Of a stretch of 64,000 nt of DNA, positions 21,004-44,298 are shown in pieces (position 1 is the first letter of the stretch; each line of letters starts with the position of its first letter). Source of the stretch: Artemia franciscana. Taxonomy: Eukaryota > Arthropoda > Branchiopoda > Anostraca > Artemiidae. The notes under the pieces were generated by a model that was given only the letters and a program-made list of their open reading frames with translations, was not told the DNA's origin and searched no databases. The position numbers and the translations under genes are program-made. The stretch lies in contig NC_088883.1 in NCBI RefSeq assembly GCF_032884065.1, positions 30,187,310-30,251,309 on the forward strand. Reading direction: 5' to 3'.

Positions 21004-21871
21004 TGTAACATATAGACCAGCCCCCTCCCCTCTATAAAAAAATCTCTCATCCATACTCTTCTAGGAATTCTTAAATTCAGGACTAAATTTCTCAGTCACA
21101 CCCCTTTAGTAAATTTCAATTAGTAAAAGGTTTGAATAAAATCATTTAGAATTTAACAGTTGCTAAATTTAACAGTCTGCATAATCCAACGCAGTTGGAC
21201 TACGTGCATTTAGATAAGTTAAATGTTACTTAACAAGTTAAGTAACCAGTTATTCTGACCCCTGGGTTTTTCAACTCAAAACCAAAAGGGAAATCCTTGC
21301 CATAAAAACAACTTTTGGATGCGAGACTAGTCACATGATTAAATATTACCAATAGTAGTGGAGGTCAACTTCCACAGGTCACCAAGCCTGTCCGGCGGGT
21401 GTTTTTTCAGAGAAATCGCGCGTTGGATATATGAACCCAACGCAAGGGCGAATAGTCAGTTTTATGGAGAGAGTCGAATGCATTAGATCAATTGCTCATG
21501 TTCACCTTTTCATGCAATAAGTCATTGAAGCTATTTTGTCAATAGTTGTATATTGTAAGTAAATAAACCTTATTGTATTTAATCATCTTCTGTCTATGTA
21601 TTAGGGCATAAGGTACAGTTCCTCTAGCTTTCAGGTACGGTCCCAAGGGAATCTATATTTGTTTCAGGAGACCTTGAACAACACCGAGATGGTTCTGTCT
21701 CCCAGGTTACCGGGGATTATATACGAAGCCTTTTTATTTTATTAATAATTTAGCTCCCATATCCACATCAAGCTATTAAGACTTAGAAAAGTCCCTAGCA
21801 ACTCAACGCAAACCCCCTTCAAGATAAAATCACAACTCAAACTTATTATTTAACAAAACCACCCCGTAACA
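21004..21871 (+). repeat. 5' LTR (868 bp)
   Basis: Begins TGTAACATATAGACC and ends CCCCGTAACA, giving the usual TG...CA ends. A TATA-like tctataaaaa lies at 21031 and a polyadenylation-type aataaa at 21562-21567. It is nearly identical to 43433-44298. Confidence 0.93.
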
Positions 21872-21873
21872 TA

Positions 21874-21887
21874 TGGCGCGGTCGGGA
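21874..21887 (+). promoter_or_regulatory. Primer binding site
   Basis: The sequence tggcgcggtcggga starts two bases after the 5' LTR. It begins with TGG, complementary to the CCA end of tRNAs, and resembles the tRNA-Ser-type sites known from 17.6/297-like errantiviruses. The exact tRNA is inferred. Confidence 0.65.
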
Positions 21888-22180
21888 AAAGAAAGCAGCA
21901 AAAGGAACTGAAAGTACCTGCGTAATAAATGCCTACTAACATAGACAAGTATGATTACTTACATTTATTTTTTGATTTTTAAGTGCAGTGCAATTTTATC
22001 TCGCTTTTTGAATTTTTAGGTGCAGTGCGATTTTATTTCTATTTTTGCATTTTTTTTTATAGGTATATCCCATTCAAAAAAAATCAAAATCTTTAAGAAA
22101 TTAAAATAAAACAGTAATAAAATTAAAAAATTTGGAGATTATTTTATACCGCATACGTAAAAAAAAAGACTACAATAAAT
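21888..22180 (+). other. 5' leader of the LTR element
   Basis: Untranslated leader between primer site and gag. It contains two imperfect ~41-bp copies around the motif aggtgcagtgcgattttat (about 21980-22045) and a pyrimidine-rich stretch ending ttttttataggt near 22062 that could act as a splice acceptor. Confidence 0.5.
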
Positions 22181-23362
22181 ATGGACCAGGAACAAGATGA
22201 AATATTAAAAGCGCAACAAATTATTGCAACTTCAGTAGAAATTGCAAAATCATTACCAGAATATGAAGGAGATACGGACGTTGATCAATTCAACATCCAT
22301 TTAGGACAATTTGTGGAAATGACAAAAATTGACCTAAAAGTATTAAAAAATATGTTACTTTTAAGATTGAAAGGACAGGCGCTAACATTCCTAAAACAAA
22401 TCGAAAACTCGATAGGTACAGAAGCAACCTCAACAATTAACTCAATAGAATTATTGCAACAGGCCTTCCAGAAAAGATTCATTGACACAAGTTCATTGAA
22501 TAAACTGAAATATGGCCTAGTTACTTTCGAACAGACCCAAAACGTTCGTGAGTACTTACATAAGGTTAGAATCGCAACAGAAGCGCGATACGGTCCAGGA
22601 AAAGGGGAATTATATGAAAAAATCATACTAAATGCATTTAAACAGGGACTAAACCCAAAGTTATACCGCCTTTTGATAGCTAAAAATATTGATAACCTAG
22701 AACTAGCAGTTCAGGAAATAGAAAGAGCCGTAGAAATTGATTCGATTGTCCTGCAGCATCAAAAACTGTCAATAAATGCTGTAGAAAACAAAGCCCCTGT
22801 AAAGTCAAGAGATTCCTCTCCGCGATTTTTCTCCCGAGAATCATCGCCCAAACCTATTCGAAATCAAATTCGAACCACCACACCTCCAAGACAAGTACGT
22901 TTTGCCCCCAATAACCTATTAAGGGCACAAACTAACAAAGAACCATTAAGGTGTTTCACATGTAGCCGGTTAGGACATATCGCAAGAAATTGTTTCGCAA
23001 ACAATAATTATCGACCAAACATTAGGGGGACGGGTAACCGTTTGTCCAGGGGGACAAACTATAGTGGGTACGCCCCTAGAGGCAATCGAGGGAACACCTT
23101 TGTAACAAGAAATAATTATCCCACCCAAAATCAAAATTTCCAACGCAATACGTATCAATATCGAGGAGGGTATCGTGGAAGAACAAATCAACCCAGTAAT
23201 AGTTGGAACAGAAATACAAGAGGAAATTACATCAGCCGACGGCAGCCATATAATAGCTCCATCTCAAATAATAACCAAGGAACCCAAAACAGAACAAATG
23301 GAAGTTCTACATCTAACATCTGGGAGTCCCAGGGAAACGATATAAGCCTCCAAAATTCGTAG
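22181..23362 (+). CDS. gag: gag polyprotein of the LTR element
   Basis: 393 residues starting at ATG 22181. Residues 1 to about 215 are helix-rich and match the capsid-like region of arthropod Gypsy gag proteins. A low-complexity S/R/P region follows. One CCHC zinc knuckle (C258-x2-C261-x4-H266-x4-C271, reading CFTCSRLGHIARNC) binds RNA. The tail after it is rich in Asn, Arg, Gly and Tyr. The frame stops at 23360-23362. The -1 frame stays open across the stop to about 23422, which would allow a gag-pol frameshift, but the protease frame is not reached without a further shift. The role is particle assembly and RNA packaging. Confidence 0.88.
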   Translation: MDQEQDEILKAQQIIATSVEIAKSLPEYEGDTDVDQFNIHLGQFVEMTKIDLKVLKNMLLLRLKGQALTFLKQIENSIGTEATSTINSIELLQQAFQKRFIDTSSLNKLKYGLVTFEQTQNVREYLHKVRIATEARYGPGKGELYEKIILNAFKQGLNPKLYRLLIAKNIDNLELAVQEIERAVEIDSIVLQHQKLSINAVENKAPVKSRDSSPRFFSRESSPKPIRNQIRTTTPPRQVRFAPNNLLRAQTNKEPLRCFTCSRLGHIARNCFANNNYRPNIRGTGNRLSRGTNYSGYAPRGNRGNTFVTRNNYPTQNQNFQRNTYQYRGGYRGRTNQPSNSWNRNTRGNYISRRQPYNSSISNNNQGTQNRTNGSSTSNIWESQGNDISLQNS

Positions 23363-23437
23363 GACCAAAATTTGGTGGCAAGATAATTTATAGGTCCCCC
23401 CAGTAATAATACCATTTTTAAGTGCAAATAATAAAAG

Positions 23438-23755
23438 ATGTTACCAGTATTTGAAAATTTTAACGCAGGGAATATTTATTTCTCAGCCCTTATAGATTCA
23501 GGAGCAACTGTAAATGTGATAAATACATCCGTATTTAATAAATTACCAAACTATATTAAACGACGAATGAGCAATATCTGTCCCAATTTATCAAGTGTAA
23601 CCGGACACGACCTGGATGTGAAAGGCACTGTGTACCTAGCCTTGCGCAAGGATAACAGAAATTTCTATACTCGATTTATAGTTTGTAAGAATTTTCCATA
23701 CGAAGCGATAATAGGCGCAAATATTTTAAAATCAAATAAAATATTATTAGACTAG
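23438..23755 (+). CDS. pro: Retropepsin (protease), cut short by the Helitron
   Basis: An aspartic protease of the retropepsin type, with the catalytic motif DSGA at residues 20-23 after a hydrophobic strand, and a second strand near AIIGANIL. The frame continues that of gag, but four stop codons lie between them. The stop at 23753-23755 is not native. It is formed by the first bases of the Helitron at 23752, and the protein frame resumes without loss after 26794. The intact pol would therefore have joined protease to the RT segment. Confidence 0.85.
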   Translation: MLPVFENFNAGNIYFSALIDSGATVNVINTSVFNKLPNYIKRRMSNICPNLSSVTGHDLDVKGTVYLALRKDNRNFYTRFIVCKNFPYEAIIGANILKSNKILLD

Positions 23756-23756
23756 C

Positions 23757-23789
23757 TGTTGGGGTGGCGCTTCGCGCCACCCCAACACC
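23757..23789 (-). terminator. Helitron 3' hairpin
   Basis: A near-perfect palindrome (gttggggtggcgc with gcgccaccccaac around a cttc loop) lies immediately inside the CTAG end. It is the termination signal expected for rolling-circle Helitrons. Confidence 0.85.
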
Positions 23790-23925
23790 TAGTTGGTGGG
23801 GCGCTTCGCGCCCCCCCAAGCCCCCCCGCGCGCGTAAGTCGTTACGCGCCATATTAGTTATGCGCCATTGTAGTTGTGTCCCTGTGTCCCACCTGTGAAT
23901 ATAGATAGATTTATATATGTGTTTC

Positions 23926-24534
23926 AAACTACGCAAAAATTGCGAATAAACAACATTCTTGGCTTTCCCATTGTCTGTGCATATGCAAAGCCGTATGTAC
24001 TAATAATGACGTCATATACAAACGCTCTTTTTACAAACAAACAAACATGCATCCACATAACTCGTTTTTATATAGATAGATACAATACAAATTAACTGCG
24101 TAAAACTTGCGAATAAACAACATTCTTCGCTGTCCAATTGTCGCTGCATATAAATACATTGTCAGGTTTACCGACCCTCGAACATGCAACGTACAATTGT
24201 CCATGGGAAAAACAATCAGGATTAAGATCTATACCACATTTTTCTAATGATTGACCTTGAGCTTTGTTAATGGTGATTGCAAATACTAATCGAATTGGGA
24301 ATTGCAATCTTTTAAATTGAAAAAGCAGATCCGTTGGAATCATGGGAATGCGAGGAATAAGAACAGCCTCACCCTCATAAGGCCCTGTCAAGATTGTGGC
24401 CTCTATTAGGTTTTCCATTGTTTTTTTTTTACGGCAAGTCGCGTGCCATTGCAAAGCTTTGGTGGGTTGGTATTTCTTAAAAGTATTATTGGTACGCCTA
24501 TTTTTAGTTGTAGCACGTGTGGTGGAAACCCTGA
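23926..24534 (-). repeat. Helitron internal duplication, copy 1
   Basis: ~610 bases that recur at 24950-25574 with a few indels. Both include the helicase end and 3' flanking DNA with a (tagatagata)-type microsatellite. The duplication suggests two Helitron 3' parts in tandem. Confidence 0.8.
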
Positions 24535-24867
24535 AGGATCTATGGAATTTAAAAATTCAGATGGATAATTAACCGCTTCATTTGGTTCCAAAACTGTGTC
24601 GACTGACTTGTAAAGGACTGCCTGGTCTCGAATCTTGTTCAAAACAATATTGTTGATTTCGTGGACGTCTATATTTTTGGGTGCGAGAATCGCTCTTTCA
24701 CTTAGCCATTTATTATTTTTATAATTTTTTAGAATATTCGGAAATACTTTTTCAATCAATTCATTTTTGGACGTCACTAAATTACAGAAATCAGCAGGTA
24801 GTTGTATACGTCCTGAAATTGAGTCTACTGTTTGACCAGAGTCATCGTTTTGCAATCGGACACGCAT
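24092..24867 (-). pseudogene. Helitron PIF1-type helicase, C-terminal part
   Basis: Two overlapping minus-strand frames (24406-24867, then 24092-24454) give the end of the PIF1-like helicase of a Helitron Rep-Hel protein. Motifs in order are LPADFCN, a VLEPNEAVNYPSEFLN segment, LKIGVPIILLRN, and the helicase motif TINKAQGQSL with YVACSRV near the end. A frameshift near 24420, in a T-rich run, separates them. The N-terminal helicase motifs are missing. Confidence 0.8.
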
Positions 24868-24949
24868 ATTTGTAGTTAATTTTAATATTTTTACGTTTGC
24901 CTATAAATTAAAATTTTTTAGGCAAGCATTCATTTCGTCTGCAGGAGTT

Positions 24950-25574
24950 AAACTACGTAAAAATTGCGAATATACAACATTCTTGGCTTTCCCATTGTCT
25001 CTGCATATACAAAGCCGTATGTACTAATAATGACATCATATGCAAACGCTCTTTTTACAAACAAACAAACATGCATACATACAACTCGTTTTTATATAGA
25101 TAGATAGATAGATAGATAGATAAAATACAAATTAACTGCGTAAAACTTGCGAATATACAACATTCTTCGCTGTCCAATTGTCGCTGCATATAAATAGATT
25201 GTCAGGTTTACCGACCCTCGAACATGCAACGTACAATTGTCAATGGTAAAAACAATCAGTATTAAGATCTATACCACATTTTTCTAATGATTGACCTTGA
25301 GCTTTGTTAATGGTGATTGCAAATGCTAATCGAATTGGGAATTGCAATCTTTTAAATTGAAAAGGCAGATCCGTTGGAATCTTGGGAATGCGAGGAATAA
25401 GAACAGCCTCACCCTCAAAAGGCCCTGTCAAGATTGTGGCCTCTATTAGGTTTTCCATTGTTTTTTTTTACGGCAGGTCGAGTGCCATAGCAAAGCTTTG
25501 GTGGGTTTATATTTCTTAAAAGTATTATTGGTAGGCCTATTTTTAGTTGTAGCACGTGTGGTGGAAACCCTGAG
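24950..25574 (-). repeat. Helitron internal duplication, copy 2
   Basis: The partner of 23926-24534. It includes an expanded gata microsatellite near 25100-25122. Confidence 0.8.
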
Positions 25575-25700
25575 AATAATATCTCGAGGTAAAAACTGAT
25601 CACCGACCATAACGATGGCCACTTCGTCGATAGTTGGAGCATTGTATCTACGCACATGTTGGCCAGGAGGCGTTTTGTCAGCGGAAATAACAATTTTATG
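25240..25700 (-). pseudogene. Second copy of the Helitron helicase C-terminus
   Basis: Repeats the same helicase end as 24092-24534, including TINKAQGQSLEKCGID, again with a frameshift near 25445. It joins upstream at about 25575 directly to Rep-side sequence, so the whole middle of the Rep-Hel gene is deleted here. Confidence 0.75.
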
Positions 25701-25991
25701 CGTATAAGTAGGCATCAAATCGATGGCTGTTTTGAACAGACGCACTAAATTATTATTTTCGTGGAAAAGATGTTGTAATTGGGAAACGATTGTCCTTTCA
25801 ATGTTGGGAGAAATTTCGCAATGTGCATTCAATTCAGAATTTCTATCACTGATGAAGTACAATTGTAAAAATTTATGATTCTCGCCTGAGAATGGTAGAA
25901 CAGACCCTGCTCTATGATAAATTTGCCCTTTTACTTTGAAAGTAGACATAAATTGATCTGGATTTTCAATTTGGGCTCCAAACGACGTCAT
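25575..25991 (-). pseudogene. Helitron Rep-side (helitron-like N) fragment
   Basis: A minus-strand frame reading MTSFGAQIENPDQFMSTFKV and, further on, HYFISDRN-type and NIERTIVSQLQ segments typical of the region before and within the Helitron-like N domain that precedes the Rep endonuclease. The HUH catalytic motifs themselves are not present because of the deletion at about 25575. Confidence 0.7.
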
Positions 25992-26079
25992 TTGGAAACA
26001 TGAGTTGTATTTTCTGATTCATTTATATTCCTTATGTCCCGGTGTCCCGGTCGTCATTTATATCCCCCTGTTTTATATC

Positions 26080-26540
26080 CCATTTATTTTTCAGTTTTTT
26101 CCTTTTTTCAGTTTTTTTTTAGTTTTTTAGTTCTTTTAGTTTTTACGTTTTTTAGTTTTTTTTAGTTTTTGACTAAAAACTAATGAATTTTTAATTAATA
26201 AATAGATATTAATAGATGAATTTTTTTTTTTAGTTTTTTACCTTTTTTTCTTTTTAGTTTTTATTGGTTTTTACCTTTTTTAGCTTTTTATCTTTTTTAT
26301 TTTTTTTATTTTTATTTTTAATTTTATTAGTATTCTTTTTCTCTTCTATTTTTCATTTTTCCTTTTTTTTAGTTTTTTTTAGTTTTTAGTTTTTTAAGTT
26401 TTTTCCTTTTTTTTAGTTTCTTTAGTTTTTTTAGTTTTTCGGCTTTTTTATTTTTTTATTAGTTTTTAGTTTTTTTTGTAGTTTTTGCCTTTTTTTAGTT
26501 TTTTCAGTTTTTTTTTTAGTTTTTAGTTTTTTACCTTTTT
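26080..26540. repeat. Low-complexity (TTTTTAG)n tract in the Helitron
   Basis: About 460 bases made almost only of ttttttagtttt-like units. No coding potential. Confidence 0.9.
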
Positions 26541-26542
26541 TA

Positions 26543-26616
26543 GCCTAACCAGGATTTGAACCTGGGACCTTCATTCTCCGTTCTGACACCCTCTCTCACC
26601 GAGTGACTACTCCAGC
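26543..26616 (-). repeat. tRNA-like sequence inside the Helitron
   Basis: A 74-base minus-strand segment with a B-box-like ggttcaaatcc inside a perfect 5-bp T-arm stem (ccagg/cctgg) and an A-box-like D-arm region. Acceptor and anticodon stems do not pair properly, so I call it tRNA-derived and not a functional tRNA. Confidence 0.5.
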
Positions 26617-26837
26617 ATGTTCATTTTGGTGTTTTAAATGGTATATTATTAACCAAATTAATGTGTTTTACAATATACTAAGTATCGTCATAACAAAAAT
26701 GGTGGCAACTAATTTCATGACGTCAGCCGAAACATGACGTCACCTGATCCACAGATCAACAGATCCACAGACAACTTATTTTTATATATATAGATGTAGC
26801 AAATTCAAAGTTTATCTACCCAACGGATACCATATCA

Positions 26838-29117
26838 ATGATAAATAACATACAAGCAAACAAAGTAAGGGAAAATATAGGTAACATGAAAGAGTATAGA
26901 AACAAACAAATTCAAGAAATTTGTTATTTATGGAAAAAACTTGAAAAAATAGAAACTCCAGGAAAAAAACCAGCGGAGAATCTTCTAAATTCAATAAAAG
27001 AAGAAAATAACGAAAAATATTATGGATTTGTAGTGCGTAAAACAAAAATTCCCCCTAAATCAATGCAGAGGGTCCAAATATCACAAATGTTAGAACCAGT
27101 TAATGATAAAAATGAAATTTGGGTAGCATCGCCGTCGGAAAATCTCCCGAAATATGTAGTTTGTGAAGAACAAATTATAAATTACGAAAAGGGAGAAGGT
27201 TACATTTGGGTAACGAACACCCACGAAAACGACCTAATTACCCTAAGTAAAGGTACATGTTTAGTAGAGATACAAGTAGTATCGGAATCCGATATTAATA
27301 ATTGGAAAAATTTGGAAAAAAACTTCGTGAATAATATTAATGTTCACGTTGACACAGAATATCCACTGACGCGATCTCAATTCCTTGAAAAATTCGAACT
27401 AAGTCACATAACCGATGTGTCATTAAAACAAAAATTATGCGACTTATTATGGGAATATAGAGATGTCTTTTCGACATCTGAAGATGACATAGGACTTATC
27501 CCATTTTATGAACACGCAATACAAACCACGGGGCCGCCAGTTGCAAAACAACCATACAGAATTCCTTATAAACATAAAGAATGGCTAATAAAAAAAATAC
27601 ATGAACTCGAAAAAAATCAAATCATAAGGCCAAGCGTAAGCCCATACTCTGCCCCCGTCATTCTAGTCCCGAAGAAGAACAATGACCTTAGATTAGTGGT
27701 AGATTATAGAGCCTTAAATAAACAAGTAGTAAATGACAAATTTCCCCTACCTAGAATAGACGAAATTCTAGATTCAATATCAAATAAAAATAAAATATTT
27801 ACTTCCCTAGATTTGACACAAGGATATCATCAAGTAAAAATAGCTGAGGGCGATGTTTTTAAAACAGCTTTTTCAACAACAGAATGTGGTTCTTATGAAT
27901 ACTTAAGGGTACCATTTGGACTAAAAACCAGTTCAAGTGCATTGTGTAGACCCCTCCTTCATTTACTAAGAGGCCTAAATAACATAATTCATTTTGTTGA
28001 TGACGTCATAGCTATGGACAAAGACGCGGAGGACCATTTAGTGACCCTAGCAAAAGTGTTTGGGAAATTTAGAGAAGGCAATTTAAAATGTAGACCAGAA
28101 AAAGTAAATCTTTTTCAAACAAAACTAAAATTTTTAGGAGTAGTTGTAACGCAAGGACAAATTTCCCCAGACCCTGAAAAAATAAAATCCGTTAAAAATA
28201 TAAAGCCCCCCCAAACAATTAAACAATTACGAGGAATCTTAGGATTAATGAGCTATTTCCGAAAATTTATAAGAAATTACGCACAAGTTGCAAAACCTTT
28301 AACGGACCTCACGAGAGGCAACCCACAAAAAATTGTGTGGTCTAATACAGCTCAGAATGCATTAAATCATTTAAAAAAGGCTCTAACCTCAGAACCTATT
28401 TTATCGCTACCCGACTTCCAAACAGGACAATTCGTTGTTACAACGGATGCCTCAAACAAGGGAATTGGGGCGATCCTCTCCCAAATAATAAATGGGGAAG
28501 AAAGAGTAATAGCGTACGCTTCTCGCACCCTGACTTCTGGAGAAAGTAATTATTCTGCTACACAGCTTGAATTATTATCGATTATCCACCATTTGGACAA
28601 GTTCAGACATTATTTGGTAGGCAGAAAATTTAAACTGCGTTCGGACCACAAAAGCCTGCAATATTTGCAAACTTTCAAAAAGCCAACGGGAATACTCGCG
28701 AGATGGATTTTGAAAATCCAAGACTTAGATTATGAATTTGAACATCTTAAGGGAAAACAAAATGCCCCATGTGATTATCTAAGTAGATTTCCAGATAATA
28801 CCCCAGTAGAAAATGAAAATGAAGAAGTCAACACAATAAAAGCAAAGTATGTTCCAAGAAAGAAAGGTTTAAAAATGAAATCGGTTGAGAATAATTCGGT
28901 TGAGAAGGAACAGAAAAACAGCCCACTTTCCTTGAATTCTATAAAAATATATCAAAAGAAAGATAATACTTGTGCTGCTCTAATAGAATATTTCTTATAT
29001 GATAAAGAGTTACCTGATGGAATGAAATCTTTTAAAAAAGAAATTGATAACTATTATTTTGATTTCGACGAAAAAATACTATGTAGGATAATGACCGATA
29101 CTGATAAAAGAAATTAA
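26838..29117 (+). CDS. pol: Reverse transcriptase / RNase H of the LTR element
   Basis: 759 residues from the first ATG after the Helitron; the true frame begins at the Helitron boundary (26795) and belongs to the same pol ORF as the protease. The region to about residue 190 is the protease-RT linker. The RT has LVVDYRALNK, FTSLDLTQGYHQ and the catalytic box FVDD (F386-D389). RNase H follows with a TTDAS motif (D537), an LELLSI segment carrying the catalytic Glu, and RSDHKSL. It makes cDNA from the element RNA. The frame stops at TAA 29115-29117. That stop is in frame with the integrase and interrupts pol, so it is a point mutation and not a normal end. Confidence 0.92.
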   Translation: MINNIQANKVRENIGNMKEYRNKQIQEICYLWKKLEKIETPGKKPAENLLNSIKEENNEKYYGFVVRKTKIPPKSMQRVQISQMLEPVNDKNEIWVASPSENLPKYVVCEEQIINYEKGEGYIWVTNTHENDLITLSKGTCLVEIQVVSESDINNWKNLEKNFVNNINVHVDTEYPLTRSQFLEKFELSHITDVSLKQKLCDLLWEYRDVFSTSEDDIGLIPFYEHAIQTTGPPVAKQPYRIPYKHKEWLIKKIHELEKNQIIRPSVSPYSAPVILVPKKNNDLRLVVDYRALNKQVVNDKFPLPRIDEILDSISNKNKIFTSLDLTQGYHQVKIAEGDVFKTAFSTTECGSYEYLRVPFGLKTSSSALCRPLLHLLRGLNNIIHFVDDVIAMDKDAEDHLVTLAKVFGKFREGNLKCRPEKVNLFQTKLKFLGVVVTQGQISPDPEKIKSVKNIKPPQTIKQLRGILGLMSYFRKFIRNYAQVAKPLTDLTRGNPQKIVWSNTAQNALNHLKKALTSEPILSLPDFQTGQFVVTTDASNKGIGAILSQIINGEERVIAYASRTLTSGESNYSATQLELLSIIHHLDKFRHYLVGRKFKLRSDHKSLQYLQTFKKPTGILARWILKIQDLDYEFEHLKGKQNAPCDYLSRFPDNTPVENENEEVNTIKAKYVPRKKGLKMKSVENNSVEKEQKNSPLSLNSIKIYQKKDNTCAALIEYFLYDKELPDGMKSFKKEIDNYYFDFDEKILCRIMTDTDKRN

Positions 29118-32409: not shown

Positions 32410-33009
32410 ATGTCCAAAGCCATTATAGATACAGAATTTATTTCAATTATCCATGCTAAGGAAAACATTATATATGCGGCCGCGATTTTAGTGCAGGATA
32501 AGAATGGTAAAGAGGTGTATGCTGAAACATGGTACCTCAATTACGATTTAACAAAATTTGAACCTCATACATATAGATTTGGCTTAAAATTAGCGAATAC
32601 TCCTAAATATCAACCCGCGAGAGGAGAAGTAAAAATAAAGTATTCAAATAAAAATAAGAAAGGAAAAAACTTGACAAGCCTTCAACTATTAATAAGAAAA
32701 CTACAACAAAAATTTAATATAAGCTATTGGTTTTGCAAGGGCCCAAACCAAACTGATCTACTTTTAATTGATAAATGTAGACCACCGAAAATTTGTTATA
32801 AGATCGAGGAAAATGAAAATTGTATTAAGTACGAAGGAATTCACCACCCCTTAGATGAAATCCGACATTACGCCAAATTTATGTATGATCCAACGTCCCA
32901 AGATTACGCAGTAAGGGGAAATAACATTTTCTTAAAGAGAAAAAAATCGGTAGAAGCAAAAAAAGACGCATATAAAGGTAAATTAAAATCAAGAAAATTC
33001 AAACAATAA
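32410..33009 (+). CDS. Accessory protein 1, possible DEDDh exonuclease-like
   Basis: 199 residues from ATG 32410, not a known retroelement protein. The start IIDTEF has the D-x-E pattern (D7, E9) of exonuclease motif I, followed by a beta-hairpin region with DKNGKEVYAETWY. A motif-II-like FCKGPNQTDLLLID (D116) and a motif-III-like HHPLDEIRH (H145/H146, D149) follow. The order fits the RNase H-fold DEDDh family, but the final aspartate position carries Glu, so activity is doubtful. The C-terminus is very basic (about residues 175-199). It is the first of the accessory ORFs, and its function is inferred. Confidence 0.6.
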   Translation: MSKAIIDTEFISIIHAKENIIYAAAILVQDKNGKEVYAETWYLNYDLTKFEPHTYRFGLKLANTPKYQPARGEVKIKYSNKNKKGKNLTSLQLLIRKLQQKFNISYWFCKGPNQTDLLLIDKCRPPKICYKIEENENCIKYEGIHHPLDEIRHYAKFMYDPTSQDYAVRGNNIFLKRKKSVEAKKDAYKGKLKSRKFKQ

Positions 33010-33968: not shown

Positions 33969-33979
33969 AGAAATATATA

Positions 33980-34350: not shown

Positions 34351-35487
34351 ATGCCATTAAAAAGAACCTTAAGTTATCCCAACCTCACCAGGTTGAGGAA
34401 TGGGGAAAGTTTTGATATAAAAACTAGAACCATAAAAACTCCCTCTAGATACCTGAAAAACCGAACAGCTTGGTTTCCGTGTAAAACACAAAGTTTGCCA
34501 AATTTGTCAGAAAGTGAACACGAATTATCAGACCAAGATTTAGAAAATGCCGTTCAGAAAGCAACAAGAGAATTACAATACCAAACTCTCTACAACCTTC
34601 TCGAAATTCCTGTAAGCATCACTAATAAGCTAATAACAAGAATTTTGTTCATCTTGTTATTTTGTTCATTTACACGCAAGATAAGAAGAGAAAACTTCCA
34701 ATATAAACAGCTACTTGCGTCTCGGACTTTTACGATATTACTTAACAAAATCCCCCTCAAGAAATACCCTCTAGTAGCAACATTGATCAGCGAAAATTTC
34801 TGGAGAATCTATAATGAAGGAGGCTATACAATCATATGGCCTCTCAGATTTTTGTCAATGTTGATAAAAAGAAATACAAATGTCTTGTTGGAAAAACCAA
34901 GCATACTAAACAAAATTTATAAAGACTACAAGAACCATTATTCAGCTAGTAACTTGATAAGAAACGGCCGAAAATTCCATATTTATGAACCAGATTACAA
35001 TGAACTGAAACAAATAATCTTTACCTGTAACGAATGCGATGACAACTTTGCGTCAAAAATAGCACCTCAAACAGATATAATCGTATTTGAAAAATTAATG
35101 AACTGTAGGGACCCCCTATTTTTCCATAAAATATTAATTTTCAAAGTAATCCATAACGTGTCAGGACCCTTAACCTTAAAAGAACAGTGCAGAAGGCACG
35201 TCCGACTTCTTATGCGGAAAAGAAATATAAATTATACCCTGCGGAGCCTTCAAATACCTAAAAATTTACAAAAATATCTTATGTTCGCGGAAGACAATTC
35301 AGAAAATAAAGGTCAAATATCTGAATTAACCTTTTGGTCAGCTCATATTCCTAGATCAAAAGATTTTTTAACATATATAGGCGGACCAATTTTCAACGTG
35401 CAAAATAATTTCGACATCAACTGTCTACTTTACAAAAATTTTAAACCTTCGAGTAACAAACAGCTAATCCCGCGAAATTATCCATGA
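34351..35487 (+). CDS. Accessory protein 2b with SOCS-box-like motif
   Basis: 378 residues from ATG 34351, intact. Residues 45-270 form a helical region shared with the preceding paralogue and not recognised otherwise. Residues 273-312 resemble a SOCS box: a BC-box-like LTLKEQCRRHV (C280) that would bind Elongin B/C, then a Cullin5-box-like core LQIP (300-303) and LQKYL (306-310). This is the layout used by SOCS and ankyrin-SOCS proteins. Another 65 residues follow. A tandem duplication of about 1.2 kb produced the pair, and both copies are preceded by similar ~60-base leaders with cctgcttata. Target unknown. The E3-adaptor role is inference from the motif. Confidence 0.65.
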   Translation: MPLKRTLSYPNLTRLRNGESFDIKTRTIKTPSRYLKNRTAWFPCKTQSLPNLSESEHELSDQDLENAVQKATRELQYQTLYNLLEIPVSITNKLITRILFILLFCSFTRKIRRENFQYKQLLASRTFTILLNKIPLKKYPLVATLISENFWRIYNEGGYTIIWPLRFLSMLIKRNTNVLLEKPSILNKIYKDYKNHYSASNLIRNGRKFHIYEPDYNELKQIIFTCNECDDNFASKIAPQTDIIVFEKLMNCRDPLFFHKILIFKVIHNVSGPLTLKEQCRRHVRLLMRKRNINYTLRSLQIPKNLQKYLMFAEDNSENKGQISELTFWSAHIPRSKDFLTYIGGPIFNVQNNFDINCLLYKNFKPSSNKQLIPRNYP

Positions 35488-35560: not shown

Positions 35561-36196
35561 ATGGAATCTCGGCCGCATTACTTCCTCGCAATCCAAGTTA
35601 AAAACCCTCAGATAAGGATGAATGCTTCATTAATGCAAAAACACGTAATTGAAACAAACCCTATGTTAACAAAAGCCTTAATCAAACAAAACTCTTTCCA
35701 TCTAACGTTAAAAGTATTGCATCTGAAAAATAATACTGAAATTGAACATGTAAAAAGTGCTTTTGTCAAGACCATAGAAAAATATAGACAAAATTTCACA
35801 AATGAAAAACTTTATCTTGATTTTCAAGGCATCGGGGATTTCTTTAAGCAAATTATATATGCAAAATTAGAGAACGAAGAGGTAGTTAAAACACGCTTAA
35901 ATCCAATCATAGAAGAAATCTCGAAAGAAATTACCAAAAGCGGAGTACAAATTGTAAATCAAGAAAACTGGAAGCCACATTTAACGTTAGTTGACCTAAG
36001 AAAAGTAAAAAAGCTAAGGAAAGAGGCACGAAAACTTCACCCCTCGTTAACTTCAAATTTTAAAAACATGAAATTTGGAAGAGAACTTGTAAACGGGTTA
36101 CAATTACTATCAATTTTCGGACCCAAAAGCCAAGAAAACTATTACGAGATAATAGCAGAAGTAACGTTTGAACAAAACACCCCTAAATGCAACTAA
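35561..36196 (+). CDS. 2H phosphoesterase, AKAP7-like
   Basis: 211 residues from ATG 35561. It has the two HxT motifs that define 2H phosphoesterases: HLTL at residues 47-50 and HLTL at residues 140-143, each on a predicted strand. The start (HYFLAIQVKNPQI), the helix reading NPMLTKALI and the GIGDFF strand match the AKAP7 nuclear-domain family. Known members include animal AKAP7 and the C-terminal domain of rotavirus VP3 and coronavirus NS2, which cleave 2',5'-oligoadenylates. Here it would be a cytosolic or nuclear phosphodiesterase. Substrate is not known in arthropods. It lies 73 bases after the SOCS-like gene in the same orientation. Confidence 0.85.
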   Translation: MESRPHYFLAIQVKNPQIRMNASLMQKHVIETNPMLTKALIKQNSFHLTLKVLHLKNNTEIEHVKSAFVKTIEKYRQNFTNEKLYLDFQGIGDFFKQIIYAKLENEEVVKTRLNPIIEEISKEITKSGVQIVNQENWKPHLTLVDLRKVKKLRKEARKLHPSLTSNFKNMKFGRELVNGLQLLSIFGPKSQENYYEIIAEVTFEQNTPKCN

Positions 36197-37970
36197 AAGT
36201 AAAACAAATGAAGTAAAAACGTTTCAGGAACAGGAAGGAGAACGAAACAGGAAATATATGGCGGTAAGGAAACGATTTTTCAAAATAAATTACGCTTACC
36301 AAAACTAACATTGCAAAAAAATATATATATATAACCTCCGTATAACTATCTTAATTCATATACTTATAGTAAGACAAATATGTTAAAAATTACCAAAATC
36401 GTCGGACCTGTGAACTTTACAAACTATTATAAATAAGTGTAATAGCATATACCACACGAAAAATCTAAACTTAACACTTAGCCTACTGACCCCTTATAAT
36501 ATTAATATATACATTCAATAAAATTAGACTGGCTAATAAAAAAAAAAAAAATTTTTTTGGAGAATCGGAGTGACTATATGTGACTATAGCGTGTCATAAA
36601 TAAAAAAAAAATATATAATTTTTTTTCTCTTCTCATAATTTTAACAAAAAATGTCCCAAAAGCATTTAACAAAATTCAATCTCTTACCTTATGCGATCTC
36701 TTACCTACATGGATTCATGACACGGTCCGAACTTTGAAAAATACTTCAAATATCAAGCTTTGAAAATATATCAAAACATAATAACTATATTTGATAAGCA
36801 TGTGTTCACAAAGTATACTTATATATCCCGCTTAGATAACAGAATATAGTCTTCCCATCTAAACAACTGAACAATGTATTGTAAGACGAGACTTTTATAT
36901 AACGATAAACGAAAACAACCTTTAGTATTAAGGCCAACATAGTCGCATCATCCTATTGAAACATCGCTACATCAGATTACAAAGTAATACATTGTTCTTA
37001 ATTTGACTAGCTCTCATTCCAAATGCAAAGTGCTGTAATAAAACCCTCAATTATTATCTACTTACATCTACTTGAGGTAGTAAATACCTCAAATCTAAAG
37101 GTTTTTCGAAAAAGCCATAATTATACTGCACATCTTCAACCGACAAGATAATTGGGATAGGAAAGTATTTCTACCTAATGAAAAAATACTTATTTTTTTT
37201 CCTTATTCAATCAAGTTGAAAATAACACACTTATCTATTTCCTAACTAAACTGAAAATTTTATATAAGGAAAAACTTAATGAGAAACATTTAATAAACCG
37301 TATAAAATTACGCCATATTGCGCTATGTTAGTTAGTAAAATTTAACTAAGATAAGAATGTGCCGCTACGCGCTGCGCTATGCGCCGCATAAGACTAAAAT
37401 TAGATGCGCTAGCAAAACAAAAACAAGTTATTTTTTTAAATTTGTGTTTACCAAAATACACTTTGTGCTGAAGAACTGTGCATATAGTAATAAGGTAAAT
37501 TGGTTTCCTTTTAACCTAAACAAATTGATACAATAATGTTTCTCAATAATCTTCAACGGAGAGAATGTCACCCAGCAATAGCAGGCCCCATTAGCAGAGG
37601 TCTTATTTGAGGAAATATGACTTTTGGTTAGAAGTTAAAACCGACGTACAAATTTGTATATGCTATAATTTGGCATAATTTGTATGCTATTACGAAAAGT
37701 ACATTTTTATCATTTTAAAATAAATGGCCTAGGGAACTTAATTCATGGTCGGTACATATTTCCCTCAACATTATTGATTCAACACCCCTTTCATAAGTGC
37801 CTAAACGAAATTCTCCATAAAATTATAGCACAAAAATTGTCTCAAGGAAACCTAAATGAAAAAAAATGTTATTACTTTAAACTATAGGCCATGATGAACA
37901 ACATTTAAACTCGGTTTGGAAAGTGTGATTTATAACAAATATTTTTGGAAAGCAAAAAAAAGGGGGAAAG

Positions 37971-38015
<45 letters not shown>

Positions 38016-38385
38016 AAATTTTTTCTAATAATTTAACTCTTCTTAAATGATTATGATACAATCTCTTCTTAATTATGAGACAATGTAAGCTTATGAATAC
38101 AAAGCAACTAATAACCTACGACTTTTCAATTAAACTAGGCTAAAATTCGACCGAATTTAAATTAGTGGTTAAAATTTTTTTTTTTTTTTTTACCAATTAG
38201 GCTACTTAACTTTCAGCGGAAAGGAGTTCAAGCACAAAACAACGCTAACATGTCGGAATTCAAACCCTTATACCTCAATATAACACCCTCAGCCAATTTG
38301 TGCCAGTTTGGCATAGCTATAATTATCTCCCAAAGTGCATACCAGGAAAGCTGTGATCTGTATCTTTGAGATATAGTTACTAGGC

Positions 38386-38500
38386 CTTATAATTTTATTA
38401 TTTAATAACAAACCCTCATTTTAAGCTTTAGACTATATTAAGCCATCTATAATTGGATTTAAACTAAATTCAAATTTAAACCATAAATCAAAAATTTTCT
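38386..38500 (+). repeat. 115-bp direct repeat upstream of env, copy 1
   Basis: Almost identical to 39227-39341, which ends ~45 bases before the env ATG. Landmark: ttaagccatctataattgg. Confidence 0.85.
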
Positions 38501-39226
38501 GTAACAAAATAGGCTAATAAATTTCTACTCCATAACAAATTAGTAACTTAAGCTTTAGGCCATAATAAACAAATAATTATTTCATAATTTTATCTGATAA
38601 AAAAAAGAAGAAAAAAAAAGAATACTACTTTTAACCAAAATACTAAATTATCAAGTAGTATAACCCTAATAGCATTTACCACTCCCCTACCCCATATTTT
38701 ATTAAATTAAAAAAAATATATATATAATAATTTTTTTATGAACTGATATGGTAACGTTTACTCGCTTTGCCCTAATTCCTTATATTAGCTAACAGATGGA
38801 AATGAAGAACTAACAGAAATAAAAGTTAATCCTTCACCAGACCTCAAAACGAAATTTCAACCAAGATCGCTAATAACTTGTTATCATTTAAGGTTTTATT
38901 TCATTTCTTTTGTTTAATAGTAATATGACCATTACGATTCTGAAAACTACATATCCCCAATTTAAACAAAAAAATTAAGGTTTATTGAACTAATTTTTTT
39001 TAGCCTAACATTATTCGCTGTAAAAAACACATACTATTAAATTCTTTAATTATTTTTTGCTCAACTATGCATCTGAAAATTTTGCCTACCGCCCTGTAAC
39101 CAACAAGGCAGTATATACACCTACTGTTTGGCGATGTATACATCAAGAAGTCTTTCTTAGAGACAAATTGTCCTAACCCATGCCAAAGTCTGTACACAGA
39201 TAATATATATATTAATTACTTATGGT

Positions 39227-39341
39227 CTTATAATCTTATTATTTAATAACAAACCCTCATTTTAAGCTTTAGACTATATTAAGCCATCTATAATTGGATT
39301 TAAACTAAATTCAAATTTAAACCATAAATCAAAAATTTTCT
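39227..39341 (+). repeat. 115-bp direct repeat upstream of env, copy 2
   Basis: The partner of 38386-38500, located just before the env start. Confidence 0.85.
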
Positions 39342-39387
39342 CATTTGAAACTGGAGAAAAATTCATAGCTTTCCATTAAACGAATTA

Positions 39388-41571
39388 ATGGAAATCCCCA
39401 AAAGCACCTCAAAAAAATACGAAACGACTACTTTCTGGAAATACGATACTCAGAACGAGGAAACCACAGCAGAAACTGATTTTACTCCAACAACAATTGA
39501 AACTGAACATACCCCAATAACAGAAGTGGAAGAAACATTCCCATCGTCAAACCCCACGACGACTGACCCACAACCAATAGAGTTAGACACCTCAATATCA
39601 GAAATTACTACAAGTACTATCCCTGGTGTACTAATGCCAATTAGAAACGATGAAATTTTAATAACAGTAAGGCAACCATGGCAATCAACTAGCTGGATAT
39701 GGACTTCTTCGAAAAAGGGAAGAATACAAGTTAGATGGCAAATCCCTTTTGTCGAGACAGACTATGGTAGAACACGATGTGTGGATGGAGACAAAAAATG
39801 TCAAGATGAAGGTCACTGGAGAGAATGTTGGACAATAGATGGTAAGAAAACTTGCGCGCGACTGGCCATGGCTGACGAACCAGCGAAGGATGAATTAGAA
39901 CCCCTCCCGGAATTAACCATGGAAAATGCTCATAAAATCTCAACTCATCAGGCATTCCTCATCTTATATAGACAAAGGTTAGAGGCGTTATTTGAACTAT
40001 TCAATACAGAAATACAAAAACTTAAACAAAGCACTACACGTATATTCGAAGTATTTTTCCGAAGAAGTAAATATAAACGATTAACAAGTCTAATCCCAAT
40101 AGTAGGGGAGCTTGCTTCCCGACTATTCGGTTTGTCAACCGAAGAAGATTTGAATATACTAAGAGATAATGTTAAAAGACTCAACACAGCCATGAATACA
40201 ACATTACATGTCCAAAAAATACAAGCAAGTATCGCCAATTATCAAAAAGACAAAATCGAGGCTATATCCAAAAAAATATCAAGAACAGTCAGCACAATGA
40301 ACTATTTAAAGAATGAAGTAGACAGAGTAATCTCTGATTCCAGCCTAACGATGGTGTCACTCGACATTGTTATTATGTCTTTGCTAAACTTAGCCACTGA
40401 CGTCAGTAAATTTGAATTCGCGTTATTTGAATTAACAGGAGGAACTCTTTCTTACGACTTAGTGGATCCCTCGGATCTTAAGAACATCCTAAACGAAATA
40501 AAAACTCACTTAACATTTGGTCTCCACTTACCAGTTGAACCAGAAGTCGCTAACTTGTTTTTATATTATACCAAACTAAAGGTGCATATCACCGAGATCA
40601 ATGAGCAACTGTTTGCTGTAGTCACAATTCCTTTGATTAATCAACAATCAATATACGACCTACACAAAATATCTACATTTCCCATCAACATTAAAGAGAC
40701 AAACTCCTTCATGAGCATCATCCCAGAAGCGGAATATATGTTAATAGATCAAGATAGAAGAAAATACGCACTAGCAAATACCGAAGAATTAAAAGAATGC
40801 GTGTCATTTAAAAATTTGGTCTGCCAACTTACGTTACCTATATATAACGTAAAGATAGGATCATGCATGCTAGATCTATTCCTAAAGGAATCGCAGCAAC
40901 AAAATATTCCTGATTCTTGTGAAGCCTTAATAGGAAATACCAAAAGAGAAACTTTCATTAACTTACCGAACGACTTATGGTTATTTACAGTGCCTAAAAA
41001 GACGGTAGGAACCCTATCCTGCTATAACAATACAGAAAAAATTGACCCCAGCTATCGAACCGAAATATTATTACAGGATGTTGGAACTATTACAAACAAA
41101 CAAGGTTGCAGACTTGTAACTAAAGAAACAACCGTCCAAACACCTCTAATCACAACCAGCACTAATGTCATGAGCCCAAAAATAATAAATTTTCAAGGAA
41201 TAAACTTGTCCTTCACGATTCCGAATATAAATGATGAACAATCTAAAACATCCATATGGCCAAAAATAGAAAAGATTAAAGGTACAATGCAATTAACAAA
41301 AATAAAGGAAGCGTTAGATATGCAAATACCCTTATTCACTGACGAAGACCAAAGATTGAAATACGTGGAGAGCCAATACGGTTTGTTCTCACCAAACTCA
41401 TGGTATAATATTATAATCACTATATTCATGGTATTTCTTATTTCACTAACAATAAGAGCGCTACTAACAATTAACTATGGGAAACTACTGAAGAGAAAAA
41501 GGATAAATACTGATGCAATCGAGGCACAAGAGATGCATCAATTGAACCCTACTGCTCCTGATGATATTTAA
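39388..41571 (+). CDS. env: Envelope fusion glycoprotein, errantivirus/baculovirus F type
   Basis: 727 residues from ATG 39388. The N-terminal ~85 residues are Thr/Ser/Glu-rich, then comes a cysteine-containing domain. A basic furin-like site ends at about R231 and is followed by a hydrophobic segment with LFGLS, as in the F proteins of baculoviruses and the env of gypsy-like errantiviruses. Heptad-like helices fill residues 255-340. A single membrane segment spans about 673-693 and leaves a short basic and acidic tail of 34 residues. No signal peptide is visible at this ATG, and the frame is closed 14 codons upstream, so a spliced 5' exon may supply it. The protein would sit in the particle envelope. 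No frameshift is seen. Confidence 0.88.
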   Translation: MEIPKSTSKKYETTTFWKYDTQNEETTAETDFTPTTIETEHTPITEVEETFPSSNPTTTDPQPIELDTSISEITTSTIPGVLMPIRNDEILITVRQPWQSTSWIWTSSKKGRIQVRWQIPFVETDYGRTRCVDGDKKCQDEGHWRECWTIDGKKTCARLAMADEPAKDELEPLPELTMENAHKISTHQAFLILYRQRLEALFELFNTEIQKLKQSTTRIFEVFFRRSKYKRLTSLIPIVGELASRLFGLSTEEDLNILRDNVKRLNTAMNTTLHVQKIQASIANYQKDKIEAISKKISRTVSTMNYLKNEVDRVISDSSLTMVSLDIVIMSLLNLATDVSKFEFALFELTGGTLSYDLVDPSDLKNILNEIKTHLTFGLHLPVEPEVANLFLYYTKLKVHITEINEQLFAVVTIPLINQQSIYDLHKISTFPINIKETNSFMSIIPEAEYMLIDQDRRKYALANTEELKECVSFKNLVCQLTLPIYNVKIGSCMLDLFLKESQQQNIPDSCEALIGNTKRETFINLPNDLWLFTVPKKTVGTLSCYNNTEKIDPSYRTEILLQDVGTITNKQGCRLVTKETTVQTPLITTSTNVMSPKIINFQGINLSFTIPNINDEQSKTSIWPKIEKIKGTMQLTKIKEALDMQIPLFTDEDQRLKYVESQYGLFSPNSWYNIIITIFMVFLISLTIRALLTINYGKLLKRKRINTDAIEAQEMHQLNPTAPDDI

Positions 41572-43419
41572 GCCATTTTAACAGGGAGGATGTAATAATC
41601 CGGGGAAATTGAGAGGTCTTTCTCCGTACGTAACATCCTTTCCCTACTGTAGAAATATTGTTGGTGTATAACAGCTAAAAGGCTATGATACAACATACTG
41701 TATTACTTTTTGGCATATACATCAAAAATACTCTTGGCAGAAAATCTTTATGTAAATATAGACCTCTAACAAGCACGAAAAAATTCGTTCCTATCTTTTT
41801 ATGTGCAAGAGATTTAAGAGGTCATCTCTTGTAATTTTGCTGATCTATTCCAAGAAGGAAAACGTTCCAAGGCGTGATAATTGAAAGGCTATGATGCAAA
41901 ATGTATTACTTTTCGACTAATCACGCGTCGGAGGTTCAAATTTTTTTTGATTAAAGTATGATCCAGAACAATTAAGACCTCTATATAATCTTATATAGAT
42001 ATATATAACCCTCTTTAGTGCCGTAATTTTATATTTACATGTAATCATAATAATATAGTAATAGTGTAGTACCAATAAAACTATTTTTAATTGCTATATG
42101 ACCAATCATACCTCACGTTACTTCAAATGTACCTGGAAATTATTAGAATTTAAAACTTCTTTTAAGAAATCGTACATTCAATTTCCCTTTGAATGTTTGA
42201 AGAAAATAATATTACTGTTATGCAATTATGTGCTATTATTATGCAATTTCATATTACAATAATGCTTTATATTATCGTATCGCCAGTACCGTTTTATATG
42301 TTAACAACATGATTCTGCTTGGAAATTTTTATTACAGAATTTGGCATACTACTAACATTGGCCAACAAACATCATGGTCAAAGACTACAAAACACCTATC
42401 ATGATTTATCAACCACCGAAGAATGCCCAAGACACGTCTGATTCAACCGTACAACTATCACCCAAGCGACATCCCAAATAAAACCAACTACTTACTATCA
42501 TCTTTCATTTCTGACTGAATAATGTAGACTAGAGAAGACGAAATATCCAGCCAGTGGGTACAACCACAACATACCCACCACAAAAACACCATTAGTGAAC
42601 CCAATTCAACATGGAAACCCTCACAGACCTAACGAAGATTTAGAACAGGAGATCCTAAATCCTAATTTTTTTAACTTAGGAATCAACTACCAAGTAAGGT
42701 CTTAGATAGTACTTCAGTCTATTGAATTAAATTAAGATAACGCCAAAGACAATTAAGATAACGCTTAAATGCAGAAGAGAGCGGGAGCAGGACAGAAGAA
42801 CTGTAGTACCGGCCGTACCTTTGTACTTAAACTGCTGGGGATAGGTGATTCTGAGTCCCGCGCTTCCCATTTTGTAGAAGTGTAAAAAACAAAAAGTCTT
42901 TACTTTTGCTAAATGGTGATAAATTAAAAAATGACATTATATTTGTTCAATCAGTAAATAGGGCAAGGACACGAAAATTGTGATTGGTGTGAAACTAATA
43001 TCCAGAACTAATAAGTGATGAACATTTAAAAAGTGCCAAATAGTGAATTATAAATTTAAGTAAATAAAAGTGCCAGTGGAAATCTTTTTATATTACGTCG
43101 TGTATTTTTATTTTTATTGTTAAAATACCTGGGATCAATTAAAAATCAAATATAACAGTTAAAACTTCAAGTAAAAAAAAAACAATTGGAACCAGGTATT
43201 CGTGTTAATAACATTTATTGTCAAGTGTTATGGTTAAATAATTTTTTTTAGTGCTAGGTGCAGGACATATATATATAAGGTGAAGGAAAATATTTCTTGA
43301 ATTTAAATCATCATTTACAAGGTTATGGGATTATAATAAAATATTTATAGACAATAAGGAATAAATGCAATATTTAAAGAATGAGATTAGGCTGATTGAT
43401 GGGGACATCAATCTGCAAC
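41572..43419 (+). other. 3' non-coding region of the LTR element
   Basis: About 1.85 kb without coding sequence. An aggctatgat segment recurs near 41681 and 41886. A ~105-bp block (42770-42879) resembles the 5' end of LINE-B. Confidence 0.6.
42770..42879 (+). repeat. Block shared with the LINE-B 5' leader
   Basis: About 80% identical by eye to 8958-9064. Shared landmarks are gcagaagagagcggga, ggccgtac, tttgtacttaaactgctggg and cttcccattttgt. It may be a captured LINE 5' end, a SINE, or a promoter segment common to both. Confidence 0.7.
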
Positions 43420-43430
43420 GGGAAAGGGGA
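43420..43430 (+). promoter_or_regulatory. Polypurine tract
   Basis: The purine run gggaaagggga lies just before the 3' LTR, separated by two or three bases. It is the expected primer site for plus-strand DNA synthesis. Confidence 0.85.
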
Positions 43431-43432
43431 TA

Positions 43433-44298
43433 TGTAACATATAGACCAGCCCCCTCCCCTCTATAAAAAAATCTCTCATCCATACTCTTCTAGGAATTCT
43501 TAAATTCAGGACTAAATTTCTCAGTCACACCCCTTTAGTAAATTTCAATTAGTAAAAGGTTTGAATAAAATCATTTAGAATTTAACAGTTGCTAAATTTA
43601 ACAGTCTGCATAATCCAACGCAGTTGGACTACGTGCATTTAGATAAGTTAAATGTTACTTAACAAGTTAAGTAACCAGTTATTCTGACCCCTGGGTTTTT
43701 CAACTCAAAATCAAAAGGGAAATCCTTGCCATAAAAACAACTTTTGGATGCGAGACTAGTCACATGATTAAATATTACCAATAGTAGTGGAGGTCAACTT
43801 GCACAGGTCACCAAGCCTGTCCGGCGGGTGTTTTTTCCGAGAAATCGCGCGTTGGATATATGAACCCAACGCAAGGGCGAATAGTCAGTTTTATGGAGAG
43901 AGTCGAATGCATTAGATCAATTGCTCATGTTCCTTTTCATGCAATAAGTCATTGAAGCTATTTTGTCAATAGTTGTATATTGTAAGTAAATAAACCTTAT
44001 TGTATTTAATCATCTTCTGTCTATGTATTAGGGCATAAGGTACAGTTCCTCTAGCTTTCAGGTACGGTCCCAAGGGAATCTATATTTGTTTCAGGAGACC
44101 TTGAACAACACCGAGATGGTTCTGTCTCCCAGGTTACCGGGGATTATATACGAAGCCTTTTTATTTTATTAATAATTTAGCTCCCATATCCACATCAAGC
44201 TATTAAGACTTAGAAAAGTCCCTAGCAACTCAACGCAAACCCCCTTCAAGATAAAATCACAACTCAGACCCATTAATTAACAAAACCACCCCGTAACA
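43433..44298 (+). repeat. 3' LTR (866 bp)
   Basis: Matches 21004-21871 with about eight substitutions and one 2-base deletion; four of the substitutions cluster near the 3' end. It starts TGTAACATATAGACC and ends CCCCGTAACA. Confidence 0.93.

Follow-up and report, generated by a model that had tools for sequence, protein, structure and literature searches.

Accessory genes that disarm host defences are best known from vertebrate retroviruses. Among the systems most similar to the element reported here are the errantiviruses and other env-carrying insect Gypsy elements (Metaviridae), with which it shares the order long terminal repeat (LTR)-gag-protease-reverse transcriptase (RT)-RNase H-integrase-env, a 4-bp target-site duplication and an F-type env. 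Here we analyzed this element in a 64,000-nucleotide window of the Artemia franciscana genome (assembly GCF_032884065.1, contig NC_088883.1, positions 30,187,310 to 30,251,309 of the forward strand), in which it spans positions 21004 to 44298. It differs from the errantiviruses in its size of ~20 kb, compared to the usual 7 to 9 kb (a figure from an earlier sequence-only reading of this DNA), in its long integrase tail and in four additional, conserved genes that lie between integrase and env.

Extended LTR elements have been described before. Burro of planarians is a giant Gypsy element with env homology and added ubiquitination- and apoptosis-linked domains; these lie in one polyprotein of ~4,900 amino acids (aa), and the env region is located between gag and pol (PMC6431247). 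The Artemia element differs in having separate open reading frames (ORFs) between integrase and env, and these encode SOCS-box and 2H proteins. LTR elements of bdelloid rotifers harbor captured enzyme ORFs past pol (a DEDDy exonuclease or GDSL esterase ORF3), but mostly as a single ORF3 replacing env, not as a four-gene block in addition to env (PMC5408684). Since Burro and the bdelloid elements are already described, an element of this kind is known as such.

We read the Artemia element as a member of a giant env-bearing Gypsy family of ~20 kb in which a conserved block of accessory genes, placed between integrase and env, probably counteracts host defence. Judged from sequence, this reading stands at about an even chance. 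The block and its surroundings in the window are:

29118 to 31298, plus strand: integrase with a Ser/Pro-rich tail of ~365 aa (PF00665, 2.1e-11; PF17921, 3.8e-11)
32410 to 33009, plus strand: accessory ORF 1, 199 aa, "exonuclease-like" by motif alone, with the lowest ratio of nonsynonymous to synonymous substitution (dN/dS) of the four
33123 to 33968, plus strand: accessory ORF 2, SOCS-A, 281 aa, ending ahead of the Cullin box
34351 to 35487, plus strand: accessory ORF 3, SOCS-B, 378 aa (368 aa in open near copies; PF07525, 5.3e-6)
35561 to 36196, plus strand: accessory ORF 4, AKAP7-like 2H phosphoesterase, 211 aa, with the motifs FHLTL and PHLTL
36197 to 39348, plus strand: AT-rich spacer of variable length among copies
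39388 to 41571, plus strand: env of the Baculo_F/errantivirus type, 727 aa, N-terminally truncated here

As the sequence-only reading had stated, the four accessory ORFs share one strand; env, which like them is located between pol and the 3' LTR, is on the same strand.

Other copies were searched for in the same genome (1.27 Gb, 6,468 contigs). A query of 497 bases, taken from the start of the LTR, gave at least 77 matching stretches, at least 40 of them long; these numbers are lower bounds because only 40 of the 392 candidates were scored. Among the 40 long matches, 10 pairs were on the same contig and strand, 16 to 25 kb apart. The start-to-start distance was 22,429 bp in the window and 20,313, 20,065, 25,081, 20,762, 16,548, 18,510, 20,149, 20,289 and 20,533 bp in the others. 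A SOCS-B match was present inside 8 of the 10 pairs, in one of them as a partial match (C4:32379690). The SOCS-B search of the whole genome revealed at least 115 matches (109 of 860 candidates scored), and among the best 30, 25 (including that of the window) were stop-free over the matched stretch.

At near loci in plus orientation, the end of ORF 1, SOCS-A, SOCS-B and the 2H gene followed each other in 18 of 18 cases; 11 near loci in minus orientation were outside this order table but were included in the dN/dS analysis. Furthermore, 18 diverged loci were chosen from the SOCS-B match table (SOCS-B identity of 44 to 87%) and inspected in stretches of 4.5 to 6.5 kb, in which absence of a gene close to an edge proves nothing. 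All four genes were present in order at 10 of these loci. Two had ORF 1, SOCS-A and SOCS-B without a 2H match, three had pieces of SOCS-A, SOCS-B and 2H without ORF 1, and the remaining three had SOCS-B and 2H only. In two diverged copies, the block was flanked by integrase upstream and env downstream like that of the window; in a third, env was found downstream. The conservation in position that the sequence-only reading had raised was thus found: near copies and most of the diverged loci sampled show the block at the same location, with its genes in unchanged order.

The two LTR pairs without a SOCS-B match (C131:402101-418649 and C21:13434467-13452977) were sampled in their mid-parts (6.0 and 6.5 kb; loci L066 and L067). 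Both contained the integrase tail and the spacer with 79 to 93% DNA identity to the family of the window, and between these two there were just remnants of a SOCS box (44%) and a 2H gene (44 to 45%), both distantly related. Matches to ORF 1 and SOCS-A were not found in these mid-parts. Copies lacking the accessory ORFs, which the sequence-only reading had regarded as evidence against itself, therefore exist in part: 8 of 10 pairs hold a SOCS-B match, while 2 of 10 are without the four genes and hold different SOCS-box and 2H remnants. These remnants indicate that some copies carry a different block, and they point to exchange, or to loss and decay.

Exchange is the core of one alternative explanation, according to which the block is a shuttling module, swapped among env-Gypsy lineages by recombination and selected as a module. 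In line with it are the two LTR pairs described above, the three diverged loci with SOCS-B and 2H but no match to ORF 1 or SOCS-A, and one locus with a further broken SOCS-like ORF. However, loss and decay could yield the same pattern. We consider such shuttling plausible, although below even probability, and it is compatible with a role of the block against host defence.

In addition, a conserved 111-aa ORF was observed upstream of SOCS-B at two loci of a subfamily with 62 to 64% identity (L041, 2288 to 2623; L042, 2139 to 2474), at which no SOCS-A or ORF 1 match was found. An ORF of equal length (111 aa) is located at L053 (3069 to 3404, minus strand).

Selection on the accessory genes was analyzed by Nei-Gojobori counts, using open frames from 47 loci (L010 to L056) and the window. 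The minimum lengths were 180 aa for ORF 1, 330 aa for SOCS-A (window exempt), 340 aa for SOCS-B and 185 aa for 2H, and shorter or broken copies were dropped. For pairs with a synonymous divergence (dS) of at least 0.15, the median dN/dS was 0.161 for ORF 1 (9 pairs, 5 sequences), 0.36 for SOCS-A (112 pairs, 27 sequences), 0.335 for SOCS-B (206 pairs, 34 sequences) and 0.281 for 2H (94 pairs, 29 sequences). At this divergence, no pair exceeded 1 in any of the four genes, the maximum being 0.923 in 2H. At a dS of 0.03 to 0.15, dN/dS was above 1 in none of the 521 pairs of ORF 1, SOCS-A and SOCS-B. Importantly, shifting the frame by 1 or 2 bases gave medians of 0.84 to 1.79, compared to 0.147 to 0.364 in frame (pairs with at least 8% difference). 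We conclude that all four accessory frames are under frame-specific purifying selection, with median dN/dS below 1, the outcome that the sequence-only reading had proposed to look for. Together with the conserved position, this supports its claim that these ORFs belong functionally to the element.

For comparison, the backbone genes were measured against two or three diverged copies. The dN/dS was 0.11 to 0.30 for RT-RNase H pieces, 0.09 to 0.13 for integrase in three of four matches (0.29 in the remaining one), 0.21 to 0.41 for the integrase tail and 0.08 to 0.41 for env.

The SOCS-box assignment is based on Pfam. In the window, the SOCS_box match (PF07525) is on SOCS-B; the SOCS-A ORF there terminates ahead of the second half of the box and has no Pfam match. 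In the SOCS-A proteins of the other copies tested (4 of 4), SOCS_box was detected above the Pfam cut-off (2.6e-8 to 1.6e-7), so that the previously proposed duplicated SOCS-box-like pair holds. SOCS-A is 359 to 369 aa long in 21 of 26 other open copies and 335 to 358 aa in the other 5. Using strict patterns of our own, we detected a BC box in 25 of 27 SOCS-A sequences and a Cullin box also in 25 of 27. A tree of 24 sequences, selected among the open frames of both genes, separated SOCS-A from SOCS-B by one branch with a support of 100/100, indicating that the duplication predates the subfamilies sampled. AlphaFold predicts SOCS-B to be helical at low confidence, with a mean predicted local distance difference test score (pLDDT) of 46 and block means of 64 to 83 over residues 61 to 150. 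Among the IMG/VR viral contigs, from which records of the own genome may be excluded, no relative was confirmed with SOCS-B, RT or 2H. At diverged locus L054, an additional broken SOCS-like ORF (4104 to 4916) was observed downstream of the 2H gene, suggesting that SOCS-like genes were duplicated once more.

The 2H protein has an AKAP7_NLS domain (Pfam, 2.6e-36), it matches the AKAP7 crystal structure 5jj2 (4e-26), and both HxT motifs are kept in 29 of 29 open sequences. The 2H phosphoesterase label given to it earlier agrees with these matches. AKAP7-type enzymes, including one from an oyster, cleave 2',5'-oligonucleotides, and the mouse AKAP7 enzyme accepts further 2',5'-linked oligonucleotides besides 2',5'-oligoadenylate (2-5A) (PMC8406329). 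Nidoviruses and rotaviruses captured AKAP7-like enzymes (PMC10835031), and further LigT-like enzymes, encoded by phage T4 and by avian poxviruses, cleave cyclic GMP-AMP (cGAMP) (PMC11410667). The Artemia protein resembles the viral AKAP7-derived 2',5'-phosphodiesterases in its AKAP7-like 2H domain, in its two HxT motifs and in belonging to a virus-like agent (PMC10835031, PMC8406329), but it is a predicted enzyme and is encoded in an LTR retroelement.

ORF 1 had been called exonuclease-like in the sequence-only reading, and this label was not upheld. No exonuclease family was matched by ORF 1 in Pfam or in the PDB profile search, and its AlphaFold model (pLDDT of 34) is too poor for a fold comparison. 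What is left is a DxE...HHPLxE pattern: IDTEF and HHPLDE are present in 5 of 5 sequences from the own genome and TDLLL in 4 of 5, and in the homologue P0010, DSK replaces DTE. The DxE and HHPLxE residues resemble the pattern of DEDDh exonucleases, although the final acid is E and not D. We regard the exonuclease identity as unsupported, also with respect to the bdelloid elements and their DEDDy exonuclease ORF3. The protein search yielded 11 homologues of ORF 1 (46 to 97% identity, ENA and JGI sources), all with uninformative names. One of them, P0005, is 97% identical, comes from a JGI source and has 17 member sequences, so that sequenced JGI samples contain DNA of the same or a closely similar element.

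The domain content of the block suggests how it could act. SOCS-A and SOCS-B would be substrate receptors that recruit Elongin B/C and a Cullin, and their helical N-terminal parts may select two different targets. By analogy to Vif, such ligases could ubiquitinate host proteins, probably restriction factors, and thereby lead to their degradation. Lentiviral Vif recruits Cullin5-ElonginB-ElonginC (PMC2597746), and a retroelement-encoded Cullin-Elongin adaptor, predicted here from the SOCS box, would be the shared feature. In contrast to Vif, the Artemia element has a SOCS box that is recognized by Pfam, two gene copies and a Gypsy backbone, and the likeness would be one of function. The 2H protein may cleave 2',5'-linked nucleotide alarm signals, functionally similar to coronavirus NS2 or rotavirus VP3. 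This signal removal is suggested by the 2',5'-cleavage of AKAP7-type enzymes, the viral captures of AKAP7-like genes and the cGAMP-cleaving LigT-like enzymes (PMC8406329, PMC10835031, PMC11410667). Which 2',5'-linked signal matters is determined by the host. ORF 1 would be a highly constrained accessory protein, possibly a diverged nuclease. As a whole, the block could weaken the defences of the host while the element replicates and spreads by means of Env.

Several results weigh against this anti-defence reading. The sequences in the dN/dS analysis were picked for open frames, which biases them towards functional copies, and the pairs are not independent; moreover, dN/dS was above 1 in 13 of 242 2H pairs at a dS of 0.03 to 0.15. 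SOCS-B of the diverged copy L041, the sole other SOCS-B tested, had no Pfam SOCS_box match. Of the 34 SOCS-B sequences, 27 matched the strict BC-box pattern and 29 the Cullin-box pattern. The SOCS-B protein search retrieved four proteins, all without a name and no cellular relative among them, and no cellular relative was found among the 11 hits of ORF 1. A Foldseek comparison of the SOCS-B model to the PDB gave no significant match (best E value of 0.11). The signal 2',3'-cGAMP is not cleaved by mouse AKAP7, nor by three relatives from viruses (PMC8406329). Finally, the two LTR pairs without intact block genes suggest that some copies may not need the block in cis.

Alternatively, the accessory genes could be replication or assembly factors. 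The SOCS-box proteins would then act in the turnover of the element's own Gag or Env or of cell cycle proteins, the 2H protein on RNA ends, and ORF 1 in reverse transcription or RNA packaging. The constraint on ORF 1, which is about as strong as that on integrase, fits such a core function, and the activity of mouse AKAP7 on 2',5'-linked oligonucleotides besides 2-5A also speaks for this explanation (PMC8406329). This explanation is nevertheless rather unlikely, as AKAP7-type enzymes recur as viral counter-defence and a Cullin-Elongin ligase is what Vif exploits (PMC10835031, PMC2597746), and as two LTR pairs without intact genes exist.

Passive cargo, that is, host gene fragments trapped between LTRs without function, was also considered. 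LTR elements can harbor captured fragments (PMC6431247), and many copies in the own genome hold stops and frameshifts. However, the frame-specific purifying selection on all four ORFs led us to discard this explanation, and the SOCS duplication that predates the sampled subfamilies and the catalytic motifs retained in the open 2H sequences also speak against it; we regard it as very improbable. We also rejected, with next to no residual probability, that this locus alone received a private insertion of host sequence or was assembled as a chimera, since the same block is present within other LTR pairs on other contigs. Nothing in favor of this was found concerning the block, although the window copy does have a Helitron-like insert and a rearranged junction near env.

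Returning to the anti-defence reading, we tentatively propose, at less than even probability, that this lineage evolved like the complex retroviruses: it would have independently acquired a cassette against host defence, made up of two SOCS-box receptors similar to Vif, a 2',5'-phosphodiesterase and a highly constrained protein, and would diversify this cassette and swap it between families. If so, Gypsy-type retroelements also evolved accessory genes that disarm host defences, and the defence of their hosts against such elements would involve degradable restriction factors and 2',5'-linked second messengers. The block proteins could then serve as baits for defence factors, namely the proteins bound by SOCS-A and SOCS-B and the nucleotide signals cleaved by the 2H protein. 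In the open full texts searched, no LTR retrotransposon was found to carry SOCS-box or AKAP7-like genes, and no four-gene block that is conserved in position between integrase and env and combines duplicated SOCS-box genes with an AKAP7-like enzyme was found either; an earlier description may exist, e.g., in the metazoan errantivirus survey (Chary and Hayashi 2025), which was outside this search. A term search of the available text of PMC12992720 and PMC13172572, both on insect env-Gypsy elements, did not retrieve the word "accessory."

The remaining features of the element in the window are:

21000 to 21003, no strand: left target-site duplication, CTAT
21004 to 21871, plus strand: 5' LTR, 868 bp, with TG...CA ends
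21874 to 21887, plus strand: primer-binding-site-like TGGCGCGGTCGGGA, beginning 2 bases past the 5' LTR
22181 to 23362, plus strand: gag, 393 aa, with one CCHC zinc knuckle (PF00098, 4.7e-4)
23438 to 23755, plus strand: aspartic protease ORF, cut off by the Helitron-like insert (PF00077, 3.5e-5)
~23752 to 26794, minus strand: Helitron-like insert with Pif1-helicase fragments, outside the element proper (PF21530, 6.3e-18)
26838 to 29117, plus strand: RT and RNase H portion of pol (PF00078, 1e-26; PF17917, 1.3e-33)
43420 to 43432, plus strand: polypurine tract GGGAAAGGGGATA, directly 5' of the 3' LTR
43433 to 44298, plus strand: 3' LTR, 866 bp
44299 to 44302, no strand: right target-site duplication, CTAT

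All boundary features named in the sequence-only reading (near-identical paired LTRs, primer site, polypurine tract and 4-bp duplication) were found. The two LTRs differ by seven substitutions over 866 aligned bases and by one 2-base indel, and TGGCGCGGTCGGGA is presumably tRNA-Ser-like. According to Pfam, gag, protease, RT, RNase H and integrase stand in Gypsy order. The gag zinc knuckle scores 20.6 bits, slightly below the cut-off of 20.8; integrase has the H2C2 zinc finger and the core, and its SH3-like match is below the cut-off. Rfam gave no match at gathering score within the window. By its predicted genes, this is an env-bearing Ty3/Gypsy element, errantivirus-like by its layout and by the F-type env of its homologues.

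The size of ~20 kb given in the sequence-only reading applies to the element proper but not to the full span. The latter is 23.3 kb including the Helitron-like insert in pol, and subtraction of this ~3.04-kb insert leaves ~20.25 kb, which fits the start-to-start LTR distances of 20.07 to 20.76 kb of six other copies. The statement that the ORFs are nearly all intact did not stand: pol is interrupted by the insert, SOCS-A (281 aa) lacks the Cullin box, and env lacks ~310 N-terminal residues. The window copy is thus a decayed one, with SOCS-A and env truncated and pol interrupted.

The missing part of env was recognized by comparison to near copies. In all three sampled, the env ORF begins ~310 residues earlier, with a hydrophobic, signal-peptide-like N terminus. 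This N-terminal part continues unbroken into the part retained in the window in two of the three; the third sequence stretch ends before. PF12259 (Baculo_F) was detected on three of five homologues of the env ORF, and the window env ORF itself has no such Pfam match. Close to the junction at which the 5' part of env is gone, the AT-rich spacer contains a 118-bp direct repeat (38383 to 38500 and 39224 to 39341, 98%).

The Helitron-like insert contains the Pif1 2B domain (Pfam) in reverse orientation and provides the stop codon of the protease ORF. Its ends are of the TC...CTAG type, with a GC-rich hairpin-like stretch close to one of them, features that mark Helitrons. The insert consists of two similar halves with a spacing of ~1.02 to 1.04 kb and 94 to 97% identity, and it includes a T-rich low-complexity stretch.

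Outside the element, the window contains two similar non-LTR-type retrotransposon stretches in opposite orientation (9161 to 13287 and 13796 to 14957), with a Baculo_FP_2nd domain (2.4e-6) in the ORF at 9161 to 10117. A reverse transcriptase ORF (46534 to 47772; RVT_1, 6.2e-22) is located downstream of the element. Finally, there are two tandem arrays, at 933 to 3166 and 6817 to 7888, with units of ~145 and ~355 bp, respectively; the second array overlaps ORFs with a weak DUF6451 match (3.2e-4, below the cut-off).

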